21,175 nucleotides of DNA from a virus, in the IMG/VR virus record IMGVR_UViG_3300030102_000684, positions 1 to 21,175 of that record, one strand, 5' to 3'. The translations under genes and the position numbers were made by a program. Below are positions 9,295 to 12,811 of the stretch, one piece after another; the stretch's first letter is position 1, and each line of letters opens with the position of its first letter. The notes beneath the pieces were generated by a model, which was not told the origin of the DNA, made no database searches, and worked only from the letters and a program-made list of their open reading frames with translations.

Positions 9295-10158
9295 TTGGCT
9301 TTAGAAATAATCACTGCCGAACAACGTATGGCAGAAAAGAGAGGTCATAAGATGGTCATCTGTGGTCAAAGTGGTGTGGGCAAGACAACTCTTGCCCGTA
9401 CTCTTGATCCTGACAAGACTCTATTTATTGACCTTGAAGCAGGTGACACTGCTATAAAGGATTTTCCTATTGATGTAATAAGACCAAAGACATGGCAAGA
9501 GTGTCGTGATTTTGTTTGTTACATTGGTGGTGTTAATCCATCTCTGTCAAGAGAGCCTTATGACCATATACATTATGAAAGAGTAACGCAGGAATTTGGT
9601 GACAAGTTAGTCCAAATGCACAAATACGATACTATTTTTGTAGATAGTATTACAGTTGCAGGACGTTTATGTTTTCAATACTGTATGTCTCATCCCGATA
9701 ATGTCATTGAAAGATCAGGTAAAGTTGATACTCGTTCTGCCTATGGTATGCACGGAAGAGAGATGATGTCATGGCTCACTCATTTACAACATATTAGAGA
9801 TAAGAATGTTATTTTAGTTGGCATTCTTGATTCTAAGGTAGATGACTATGGTCGAACTAACTACGAGTTACAAATAGAGGGTTCTAAAACTGCACGAGAA
9901 TTGCCTGGTATTGTTGATGAAGTTATCACAATGACAGTCATGGGTGGTGGAGATGGTGTGCAACCATATAGAGCTTTTGTTTGTCAAACTCTTAACGAGT
10001 GGGGATACCCAGCTAAAGATAGATCAGGTAAGCTTGATGTTATTGAAGAGCCACATCTTGGCAAACTAATTAGCAAGCTTAACGGATCTGCACAGAAAAA
10101 GGATCTAACATTTGTTGATCCACAATCACAACCAACAGAGAGAGGAGAAGTCCAGTGA
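9295..10158 (+). CDS. Sak4-like RecA-fold ATPase (phage recombinase family)
   Basis: This 287-aa protein uses a TTG start, supported by a near-perfect Shine-Dalgarno (GAGGAGG at 9283-9289) and by abutting the previous stop. Walker A is GQSGVGKTT at residues 24-32. Walker B is in YDTIFVDSITVAG, where the hydrophobic strand ends in the expected Asp. LFIDLEAG and ILVGILDSKVDDYGR fit the AAA_24/RecA-like Sak4 group of phage proteins, thought to work with single-strand DNA binding proteins in annealing and recombination. The SSB-like gene follows directly, the usual partnership. GTG start and TGA stop overlap at the downstream junction. Confidence 0.88.
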   Translation: MALEIITAEQRMAEKRGHKMVICGQSGVGKTTLARTLDPDKTLFIDLEAGDTAIKDFPIDVIRPKTWQECRDFVCYIGGVNPSLSREPYDHIHYERVTQEFGDKLVQMHKYDTIFVDSITVAGRLCFQYCMSHPDNVIERSGKVDTRSAYGMHGREMMSWLTHLQHIRDKNVILVGILDSKVDDYGRTNYELQIEGSKTARELPGIVDEVITMTVMGGGDGVQPYRAFVCQTLNEWGYPAKDRSGKLDVIEEPHLGKLISKLNGSAQKKDLTFVDPQSQPTERGEVQ

Positions 10159-10754
10159 TTGATTTAAATAATGTCGGTGATATGTCACCATCAGGTGATT
10201 TCGAATTAATACCTGAGAATACTATTGCAAGAGCAATAATTACGATTAAACCTAATGCAGTCACAATGCCTGAGTTTAGTAATACTCCTATCTTTAAGGC
10301 ATCACAGACTACATCAGCTAAGTGGCTTGAAGTTGAGTACACCATAATTGGTGGTCAATTTGACAAACGTAAGTTTTGGCAAAATCACTTTTTTGATGGT
10401 GATGCTAAAGACGATAGTGGTGTATCTAAGTCTAAGAAGATTGGATTGCAATGGTTGAAAGCAGTTGTTGAAAGTCATAATAATATTTCAGCAATGGATG
10501 CTTCACCTGAAGCTCAAGCAGTTAGGCAAATAGATATGCAGAAAGGTGGAGTTGCATCCATCAATGGCATGAACGTATGTGTCAAGATCGGTATTGAGAA
10601 ATCAAATGATCCACAGTATTCTGATAAGAATAGATGTAAGGTCATATTGACTCAAGGCATGGAAGGATACATACCAAGTGGATCTGCACCAACTAATACA
10701 CCATCACCTGCACCTACCAATAATGGTAATGCAGTGCCTGATTGGGCTAGGTAA
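10155..10754 (+). CDS. Phage single-stranded-DNA-binding-like protein
   Basis: This 199-aa protein starts at GTG, overlapping the ATPase stop (GTGA), with AGGAG upstream. It has DUF669-like features: a beta-rich N-terminal domain (FELIPENTIARAIITIKPNA), the central KWLEVEYTIIGGQFDKRKFW segment, then KKIGLQWLKAVVE and INGMNVCVKIGIEKSNDP. A low-complexity Pro/Thr/Asn linker ends in NAVPDWAR. The lack of an acidic IPF tip is notable: a separate 70-aa protein (13323-13535) carries one instead. The predicted role is coating single-stranded DNA during replication and recombination with the Sak4-like ATPase. Function is assigned from family resemblance and pairing. Confidence 0.78.
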   Translation: MIDLNNVGDMSPSGDFELIPENTIARAIITIKPNAVTMPEFSNTPIFKASQTTSAKWLEVEYTIIGGQFDKRKFWQNHFFDGDAKDDSGVSKSKKIGLQWLKAVVESHNNISAMDASPEAQAVRQIDMQKGGVASINGMNVCVKIGIEKSNDPQYSDKNRCKVILTQGMEGYIPSGSAPTNTPSPAPTNNGNAVPDWAR

Positions 10755-10914
10755 TGATGGTAGGCATTGGAAGTGAATGGGGAAAGTACCAGTGACGTGC
10801 TGGCGTTCACTTCCAAACTTTTAGCAAGGGCTAACTGACCTTAGTCTACTTGCAAGTCGCTTGGGTAGTGCGATGCCCTAAAACTACCCACCATTTATAG
10901 CCAATGAGGATTAC
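10755..10914 (+). ncRNA. Structured gene-free leader with several hairpins (candidate RNA element)
   Basis: This 160-base gap is visibly richer in G+C than its surroundings and is full of inverted repeats. (1) An 11-bp perfect stem pairs 10767-10777 with 10806-10816 (TTGGAAGTGAA / TTCACTTCCAA), extendable by a G-T and a G-C pair, with an inner stem CCAG/CTGG (10789-10792 / 10800-10803). (2) TTAGC-AAGG-GCTAA spans 10821-10834. (3) The palindrome ACTTGCAAGT is at 10848-10857. (4) TGGGTAGT / ACTACCCA pairs 10862-10869 with 10883-10890, with GGG also able to pair with GCCC in the loop. A GAGGA ribosome site and ATG follow. It may be an mRNA leader, a processed small RNA or part of an origin; no known RNA family is recognised. 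Confidence 0.5.
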
Positions 10915-11139
10915 ATGAAAACATTTAGAGAAGCAAAAAGAGAACTTGAATCAAGAGTTAGATCGTTAAATGATACGATTAAATTTTTGAAAAGTAATTC
11001 TTATTATGAAGATTATTGTGCAAATTGTCATAATATTATGAAAGTTAATTTAAGACAATATGGAGAAAAACAAAGATTTTGCACTAACAAGTGTAGAAAT
11101 GAAAACTTTCAAAGAGAAAAATCTAACAATGATTCTTAG
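10915..11139 (+). CDS. Small zinc-finger-like protein
   Basis: This 74-aa protein has a good ribosome site (GAGGA at 10906-10910) directly downstream of the structured leader. A charged helical N-terminus (FREAKRELESRVRSLNDTIK) is followed by a Cys cluster: C35-x2-C38 (YCANCHN) and C56-x3-C60 (FCTNKCR), a probable single zinc site. Its 3' end overlaps the start region of the helicase gene. Small proteins of this sort are common in phage replication regions as adaptors or transcriptional modifiers; nothing here decides which. Confidence 0.68.
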   Translation: MKTFREAKRELESRVRSLNDTIKFLKSNSYYEDYCANCHNIMKVNLRQYGEKQRFCTNKCRNENFQREKSNNDS

Positions 11140-12811
11140 ACCATACCAAGAAATAGCAGTAGACGATGCTTCTGATGCACTTGACAAGCACAAAAACACA
11201 ATAGTTGTAGCACCAACAGGTGCTGGTAAAACAATTATGCTATCTGCATTGATTGGCAAACGATACAAAAAAGGCAAAAAGATTTTAGTTCTGCAACATC
11301 GGGATGAACTTGTAGGACAGAACAAAAACAAATTTTCTCGTGTTAATCCAAAAATATCTACATCTATCGTAGATGCTTCAGAAAAAAATTGGGATGGTAG
11401 TGCAGTATTTAGTATGGTGCAGACACTATCGAGACCGAACAATTTGGCTAATATGTCCAAAGTAGACATGATGGTGATAGATGAAAGTCACCATGCCATA
11501 GCCGATACATACATGAGAATTATCAACAAGGTTAAAGAAGCTAATGAATCTGTAGAGATTGTTGGCTTTACTGCAACACCTAATCGTGGAGACAGAAAAG
11601 GTTTAAAAGGTGTGTTCAATAACTGCTCACATCAGATTGAAATAGCTAACCTTATACGAGAGGGTTTCCTTGTGCCACCAAAGACATTCGTGATTGATGT
11701 CGGGGTACAAAAAGATTTACAAAATGTTCGTAAAACTGTGTCAGATTTTGACATGGGACAAGTCGAGCAGATTATGAACAAACGTGCTATCAACGAGAAG
11801 ATTGTTGAAGAATGGCAGGAGAAAGCAGGAAACAGAAAGACAGTTATATTCTGTAGCACAGTGGTTCATGCACAAGATCTATGTGATGAGTTTAGAAGAT
11901 CGGAGATCCGTGCAGAGATTGTGACAGGTGAGACACCATCGGAAGAAAGAAAACAAATACTACACGATCTGGAACATGGTGACGTACAAGTTGTGGTCAA
12001 TGTTGCAGTGTTAACAGAGGGTTTTGATGCACCACCTGTCAGTTGTATTGTGCTTACAAGACCATGCTCATACAAGTCCACAATGGTACAGATGATTGGT
12101 CGTGGACTACGAACAATAGATCCTGAAGAACATCCAAACGTAATCAAGAAAGATTGTATTGTGTTAGATTTCGGTACGAGTGTATTGACACATGGGTCTT
12201 TAGATGAGGGTGTTGATCTTGATGGCAAAGATAAGATGCAACAAGGATCAGCTCCTGAGAAAGTATGTCCTAATTGTAAATGTCTTATACCATTAAGTGT
12301 TCGTGTATGTCCTATGTGTGGACATGAGATCGAGATGCAAGCAAAAGAAATGCTTGAAAAGTTTGAGATGACAGAGGTAGATCTTATCGACAGATCACCA
12401 TTTAGATGGATTGATTTGTTTAACAATGGCAGATGTATGTCAGCTAGTGGATTTAATGGCTTTGGCTTAGTTGCACATTTAGATGACGTTTCTGTAGCCT
12501 TAGTTAAACGTACAAGGGGTAAACTTAGAGTTGTGGGTGTAGGAACTAAAGAACAAGCTTTGGCTTCTGCTGACGATTTTTTGAGGGAAATAGAAGATAG
12601 TGATGGAGCTAAGAAAGGTAAAAGGTGGCTAAACCAAGCCATGACAGATAGACAAAGAGAAGCTTTAGCAAGAGAAAATAAGATTGTAAGTCAGTTGGAT
12701 CTTAGTTTTAGCAAGTACAAAGCGGCGTGTTGGTTAAATTATTTGTGGAATAAGAAAGAAATTGATGGCAGAGTTTTAGATTATTACGAGGGAGATGAGA
12801 ATGCAGCGTAG
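11129..12811 (+). CDS. SF2 DNA/RNA helicase (DEAD/DEAH-like, RadD-type architecture)
   Basis: The chosen ATG at 11129 puts MILRPYQEIAVDDA (the Q-motif-like start usual for this family) at the N-terminus, giving 560 aa. The frame is open upstream to an ATG at 11060, but that would add 23 residues encoded by the zinc gene's overlap. Helicase motifs run in order: Walker A APTGAGKT (28-35), DESHH box (from 118), GFTATP (motif III), then NVAVLTEGFDAPP and QMIGRGLRT (motifs V-VI). A Cys knuckle (CPNCKCLIP...CPMCGHE) follows the two RecA lobes. It probably unwinds branched or duplex DNA in phage replication or recombination. CGAACAATT is at 11436. Start choice is the least certain point: none of the candidate ATGs has a strong Shine-Dalgarno. 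Confidence 0.88.
   Translation: MILRPYQEIAVDDASDALDKHKNTIVVAPTGAGKTIMLSALIGKRYKKGKKILVLQHRDELVGQNKNKFSRVNPKISTSIVDASEKNWDGSAVFSMVQTLSRPNNLANMSKVDMMVIDESHHAIADTYMRIINKVKEANESVEIVGFTATPNRGDRKGLKGVFNNCSHQIEIANLIREGFLVPPKTFVIDVGVQKDLQNVRKTVSDFDMGQVEQIMNKRAINEKIVEEWQEKAGNRKTVIFCSTVVHAQDLCDEFRRSEIRAEIVTGETPSEERKQILHDLEHGDVQVVVNVAVLTEGFDAPPVSCIVLTRPCSYKSTMVQMIGRGLRTIDPEEHPNVIKKDCIVLDFGTSVLTHGSLDEGVDLDGKDKMQQGSAPEKVCPNCKCLIPLSVRVCPMCGHEIEMQAKEMLEKFEMTEVDLIDRSPFRWIDLFNNGRCMSASGFNGFGLVAHLDDVSVALVKRTRGKLRVVGVGTKEQALASADDFLREIEDSDGAKKGKRWLNQAMTDRQREALARENKIVSQLDLSFSKYKAACWLNYLWNKKEIDGRVLDYYEGDENAA

Follow-up and report, generated by a model that had tools for sequence, protein, structure and literature searches.

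The window, which comprises the 21,175 nt of the IMG/VR virus record IMGVR_UViG_3300030102_000684, contains a gene-free gap of 160 nt (10755-10914) between the stop codon of a 199-aa ORF and an ATG at position 10915. The upstream gene (10155-10754, + strand) belongs to phrog_2300 and encodes a protein with a P/Q-rich tail ending PDWAR, for which no Pfam family was found. An AlphaFold model of this protein (mean pLDDT 86) has as its best match in the PDB the PrgE protein of pCF10 (8s4s, E 9.5e-5), followed by RPA and SsbA, and the gene product is predicted to be an OB-fold, SSB-like protein. The ORF that begins at 10915 (10915-11139, + strand) encodes a 74-aa Cys-rich protein and is a variable insertion which most relatives do not have; a Shine-Dalgarno-like (SD) GAGG that would serve it can be seen in the sequence at 10906-10909 (+ strand). 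It is followed by an SF2 helicase gene with ResIII and Helicase_C domains (11129-12811, + strand), the conserved start of which is the ATG at 11129 (MILRPYQ). The start given by the ORF caller, 11060, is probably wrong, as relatives align from ATG 11129. Together, the neighbouring genes encode the SSB, a Sak4-like ATPase, the helicase, a Cas4-like nuclease and a primase.

The gap is richer in G+C than its surroundings, as the first-pass annotation had stated (45-47% versus 23-39% in most flanks). When compared with dinucleotide shuffles, the + strand of the 160-nt gap has a more stable predicted fold (-50.4 versus -41.4 kcal/mol, z -2.6, 1/200), and the - strand gives a z-score of -1.7. Judged by comparison with its relatives, this interval is made up of two unrelated things, a 55-bp hairpin insertion and a conserved structured core.

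The insertion (10768-10822, + strand) has an 11-bp stem (10767-10777 with 10806-10816) and an inner CCAGT/GCTGG helix. The nested stem reported at 10767-10816 is a genuine pairing, but it is separate from the conserved RNA, because it lies within an insertion that nearly all relatives lack. Among 29 intergenic regions only those of the window and L014 contain it, and it is missing from all other relatives except L014/L061; at the insertion point, relatives read GGCAT followed without interruption by AGCAAGG. Viral contigs encoding relatives of the 199-aa protein (63-98% identity) usually have about 109 bases in the gap, fewer than the window. Copies of the hairpin that are 94% identical over 51 nt are found in an unrelated phage group (L074-L078), where they lie between a repressor-like gene and a replication operon and show a paired change in the inner stem, from CCAGT/GCTGG to CCAGC/GTTGG. 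On this comparison the 55-bp hairpin is a dispersed element and no part of the conserved RNA. In two contigs of the L074-L078 group a further hairpin, which resembles the first in its outer stem but has a different loop, adjoins it in tandem.

The conserved core (10821-10893, + strand) is recognised by a covariance model with 52.4 bits and E 1e-14. Its five helices, PA, P1, P3, P4 and PK, all read on the + strand, constitute, according to the aligned sequences, a nested double pseudoknot that is kept by compensation. PA pairs GCAA (10824-10827) with TTGC (10850-10853), and P1 pairs GGGC (10828-10831) with GCCC (10875-10878). P3 is a hairpin, ACTG/TAGT (10834-10845). P4 pairs GTCGC (10856-10860) with GCGAT (10870-10874), and within its loop lies the 5' strand of PK, TGGGTAGT (10862-10869), which pairs with ACTACCCA (10883-10890). 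The 3' strands of PA, P4, P1 and PK are assigned by covariation. The order of strands is PA5', P1 5', P3, PA3', P4 5', PK5', P4 3', P1 3', an A-rich linker (10879-10882, + strand) and PK3'; PA crosses P1, and PK crosses both P4 and P1. The last two A residues of the linker are nearly invariant in the family (alignment columns 90-91, with A in 50/56 and 54/56 members), and few unpaired bases overall are invariant, mainly AA. P3 is weak in the window, where an extended GGCTAA/TTAGTC hairpin competes and is preferred by an energy model that is unable to score pseudoknots.

Several pairings that had been proposed for this region exist, although their significance differs from that first suggested. 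The 8-bp TGGGTAGT/ACTACCCA pairing is real, but instead of making a simple hairpin it supplies the second helix of the H-type pseudoknot built around P4. Similarly, the GGG/CCC pairing (10828-10831 with 10875-10878) is real and covaries, but it is not an ‘alternative’, as it coexists with PK and P4. A tetraloop hairpin, TTAGC AAGG GCTAA (5 bp), can be formed, but it is not conserved, its stem being broken in L015, L027 and L028, and a 10-bp palindrome, ACTTGCAAGT, is present but incidental, reading ACTTGCAACT in L015, L017 and L020.

Within the clade of the window, the sequence from 10823 onward is nearly invariant, and the core has changed little in L028, where the protein is only 63% identical. 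In L112-L116 (40% protein identity) the same architecture is spelled with different letters. When 28 members are aligned with plain MAFFT, 88.6% of cells are paired and 22 of 27 pairs have changed on both sides, with a covariation score of 0.440 versus 0.156 in shuffles (0/500). The whole family was opened through 80 helicase relatives of 60-99% identity. A covariance model built on PA, P3 and P4 only, to which P1 and PK were unknown as pairs, found 81 matches in 97 loci. Across 56 distinct rows, covariation over the five helices is 0.490 versus 0.166 in shuffles (0/500), with slid controls at or below 0.123. P1 and PK alone, which took no part in alignment building, score 0.393 versus 0.125 in shuffles, with slid controls at or below 0.133. 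With our own structure parser, the observed scores were reached by 0/720 shuffled sequences; this and the other shuffle counts should not be read as probabilities, since sequences that share ancestry can outscore shuffles.

At the level of individual helices, P1 is paired in 98.6% of cells, using CG, GC, UA and AU pairs, and P3 has both-side changes in 4/4 pairs across the family. P4 is 95.4% paired with double changes in 6/6 pairs, and PK has double changes in 7/8. Clean exchanges of pairs between near sisters indicate that the signal extends beyond deep phylogeny: GCGGC/GCCGC becomes GCGGU/ACCGC between L137 and L138 and GUGGC/GCCAC between L195 and L192, CUCGC/GCGAG becomes CUCGU/ACGAG between L017 and L020, and L028 differs from its own clade in PA (GCAAG/CTTGC to GTAAG/CTTAC). 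In other clades PA is TCTAG/CTAGA. Homologues thus do carry compensatory changes, in every helix and over 56 distinct members, and the structured RNA put forward by the first-pass annotation is strongly supported by this analysis.

In P1, P4 and the inner pairs of PK, G-U combinations outnumber A-C combinations 27:9 (p 0.004, from cells that are not independent). The excess of G-U over A-C argues that the mRNA-sense strand seems to be the constrained strand. A replication origin, which had also been proposed for this region, gains no positive support, with one copy per phage and the constraint on the mRNA-sense strand.

In one clade, the SSB gene is followed by an ORF of 92-129 aa, the ATG of which overlaps or adjoins the SSB stop codon; it is termed winged-helix-like here from a reading of its sequence, with no database match behind the name. 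In nine of its members (L149, L153, L155, L157, L160, L164, L168, L176 and L181) the nucleotides are doubly used, the entire structure falling within the 5' portion of this ORF. In these nine sequences 94% of cells are still paired and double changes are seen in 9 pairs (0/500), and the encoded amino acids vary across the structure. As pairing is compensated inside an ORF while the amino acids change, selection acts on the nucleic acid itself. The clade therefore offers a natural experiment for distinguishing constraint at the RNA level from that at the protein level, and a function in RNA from one in ssDNA.

The sense strand might instead fold as ssDNA, serving phage replication or recombination independently of transcription, as has been considered for STAXI. 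The set of neighbouring genes would suit such a role, as would the survival of function within coding sequence and the scarcity of G-U pairs, which make up about 4% of cells. Nevertheless, the G-U bias described above points the other way, intermediates with U-G pairs, as in L190, suit RNA, the orientation is always that of the transcript, and hallmarks of an origin were not found; a structure in ssDNA is considered unlikely.

The element is carried by a large group of uncultured, mostly marine phages. At 80 helicase loci, the RNA is present in 68; a further four are cut by the contig end, five are without the RNA despite having an SSB gene, and three have a repeat tract. Whole-record searches of 34 phages returned exactly one credible match in 31. 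The exceptions are L148, with none, L112, where the element was missed by the model and is visible by eye, and L151, whose one match, at E 0.07, is not considered credible. The distance from the SSB stop codon to the RNA is -4 to +19 nt in nearly all cases, and where no ORF is inserted the RNA is about 15-29 nt from the helicase start. Insertions occur on either side of the RNA.

These distances bear on the idea that the element marks a boundary of mRNA stability or processing, at which the knot would block exonucleases or designate a cut, so that the message for SSB, needed in abundance, would last longer than that for the helicase or be uncoupled from it. In favour of such a boundary, the element is anchored directly to the SSB stop codon even if further ORFs come after it, copies inside coding sequence are tolerated, and a sequence-specific ligand pocket is not obvious. 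However, in L146, where an insertion parts the RNA from the SSB gene, the RNA remains 20 nt before the helicase, and no conserved RNase site was seen. A boundary function is judged rather unlikely.

The interval between the RNA and the helicase is a hotspot for small Cys-rich or HNH-like ORFs, with examples at 10915-11139 of the window and in L001, L004, L012, L016, L026, L128-L131, L134, L136 and L182. At several of these loci the helicase starts ATGATTCTTAGA, the TAG of which terminates the inserted ORF; in insert-free relatives the helicase start is mostly ATGATTTTAAGA. In L147, L148 and L194, the SSB gene and the RNA are replaced by a C-poor (9-13% C), G+T-rich tract, which extends up to about 750 nt before the helicase and is full of GGCAGTT words. 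A clade that is devoid of the RNA (L151, L152, L156, L183 and L188) has kept the SSB gene, the winged-helix-like ORF and the helicase, and in most of its members AGGAGGT directly follows the SSB stop codon.

The Rfam search suggested in the first-pass annotation matched no family: there were 0 matches to Rfam 15 at the gathering threshold for the window and 20 members, and permissive searches gave nothing credible at E of up to 5 for the window or up to 10 for 20 short members including L195. No description of the element was found in the literature searched, a scope outside which a 2017 survey of 224 motifs falls. Among 50,697 records of phage isolates there was no full match, only partial matches of 27-33 nt, and the model found nothing near the relatives of the SSB in Wolbachia WO, AcaML1 and Megaira phages. 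In 395 cellular genomes of one bacterial phylum there were six weak matches, none of them credible; of the two best, the one that looked the more complete on inspection is inside an oxidoreductase coding sequence. The S-LBS1 match was rejected, as it overlaps coding sequence and is without PK. The element, which has no match in Rfam 15, may thus be a previously undescribed family of structured nucleic acids. It adds a structured family with an unusual fold and strong covariation to phages without an isolate in the collection searched.

An intrinsic terminator or attenuator was also discarded, there being 0 terminator-like sites in 10600-11200. The same result bears on the notion that the operon transcript gives rise to a small RNA acting in trans. 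Though a stable, compact, single-copy element after a stop codon has the appearance of such a molecule, it has no terminator in that interval and lies within coding sequence in one clade, and the sequences of P4, PK and the loops vary freely, leaving no conserved stretch for pairing with a target. A small RNA is thus regarded as highly improbable.

The position of the element, its sense orientation and its nearness to the RBS suggest control in cis of the gene that follows the SSB gene. It may be understood as a structured mRNA element that acts in cis where the SSB and helicase genes meet, a reading to which we attach about as much belief as doubt. Most likely it would be a translational operator: a phage protein would recognise it on the shared transcript, and translation of whichever gene follows the SSB gene would be controlled in this way. 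By analogy with T4 gp32, which acts on a pseudoknot in the leader of its own mRNA, the first candidate for the regulator is the SSB-like protein, though only a tentative one. It is more speculative, and less likely than not, that the element represents a new class of nested double pseudoknot, able to work both between and within coding sequences, through which the SSB-like protein would sense its own surplus and tune the helicase or the inserted gene.

A hairpin covers the SD in 23/43 cases, against 21.0 expected from shuffles. Direct masking of the SD is thus unsupported, and an SD-sequestering hairpin was rejected as a general feature, being no commoner than in shuffles. Ribosomes crossing the structure in the coding clade fit poorly with a simple 5'-UTR operator, and the retention of gene order in the RNA-less clade counts against the operator reading.

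The first-pass annotation had raised a switching leader as one possibility, and this is only weakly supported: the GGG/CCC pairing belongs to the main fold, yet in the window it competes with the extended GGCTAA/TTAGTC hairpin. Some relatives have a UCUAGC copy before the SD, which copies the PA 5' strand and is complementary over 6-8 nt to the PA 3' strand. The copy stands out in the L123-L131 group, as well as in L177, L179, L190, L192, L195, L197 and L199, and is absent from the clade of the window, from the L132-L143 group and elsewhere. Being limited to some subclades, a competing copy was set aside as a general mechanism. A riboswitch, in which the pseudoknots would be stabilised by a small molecule and access to the downstream start would change, could exploit this copy in the two subclades that have it, as a possible competitor for the PA 3' strand, and a compact double pseudoknot adjoining the RBS would be in keeping with that. 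But the competing copy is missing in the window clade, few unpaired bases are invariant, no metabolic gene is linked, and none of the matches in the single bacterial phylum sampled (395 genomes) was credible. A riboswitch is accordingly judged very unlikely.

The strand order of the HDV ribozyme, P1, P2, P3, P4, describes a nested pseudoknot topology, and PA, P1, P3 and P4 occur in the same order. Unlike HDV-like ribozymes, the phage element has an additional helix, PK, and no Rfam match, and with only 0-1 nt between the P4 3' and P1 3' strands there is no room for the catalytic C of J4/2. An HDV-like ribozyme was therefore rejected, the topology being alike and the catalytic joining segment missing.

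That structured elements can occur close to genes for SSB and helicase is already known, examples being STAXI and the ssNA-helicase motif. The latter is a structured element found near helicase genes, and possibly functions as ssDNA. It is named as an RNA family in PMC10044938, and the 21 phage members gave no Rfam 15 match of any name at E up to 5-10. STAXI (Weinberg 2010, RF01728) comprises pseudoknots that lie close to genes for SSB and other proteins that handle DNA, and is subject to an RNA-or-ssDNA ambiguity (PMC2864571). The phage element resembles it in its gene neighbourhood and in this same ambiguity. However, STAXI is a tandemly repeated pseudoknot of Enterobacteriales, whereas the phage element is a single nested double pseudoknot without a match to RF01728.

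In phage T4, gp32 nucleates at a pseudoknot in the mRNA and extends from there across the RBS, repressing translation, and the gene 32 pseudoknot overlaps an inserted homing-endonuclease ORF, segG (PMC535899). The present element shares with the gene 32 operator a phage SSB gene, here assigned by predicted structure, and an mRNA pseudoknot, here supported by covariation, near an RBS (SD 10906-10909); the present element, too, overlaps or abuts inserted ORFs. The T4 pseudoknot is about 28 nt long with a UUAAA-containing tract after it, while the present element is built of five helices, with pairs that cross, and its 3' tail is short. In addition, the T4 operator is autogenous and lies in the leader of the SSB gene, whereas this element follows the SSB stop codon and precedes the helicase. 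It provides a test case for the use of mRNA pseudoknots, beyond the T4 group of phages and as known from gp32 in T4 itself, in balancing SSB, required in bulk, against helicase, of which little is required.
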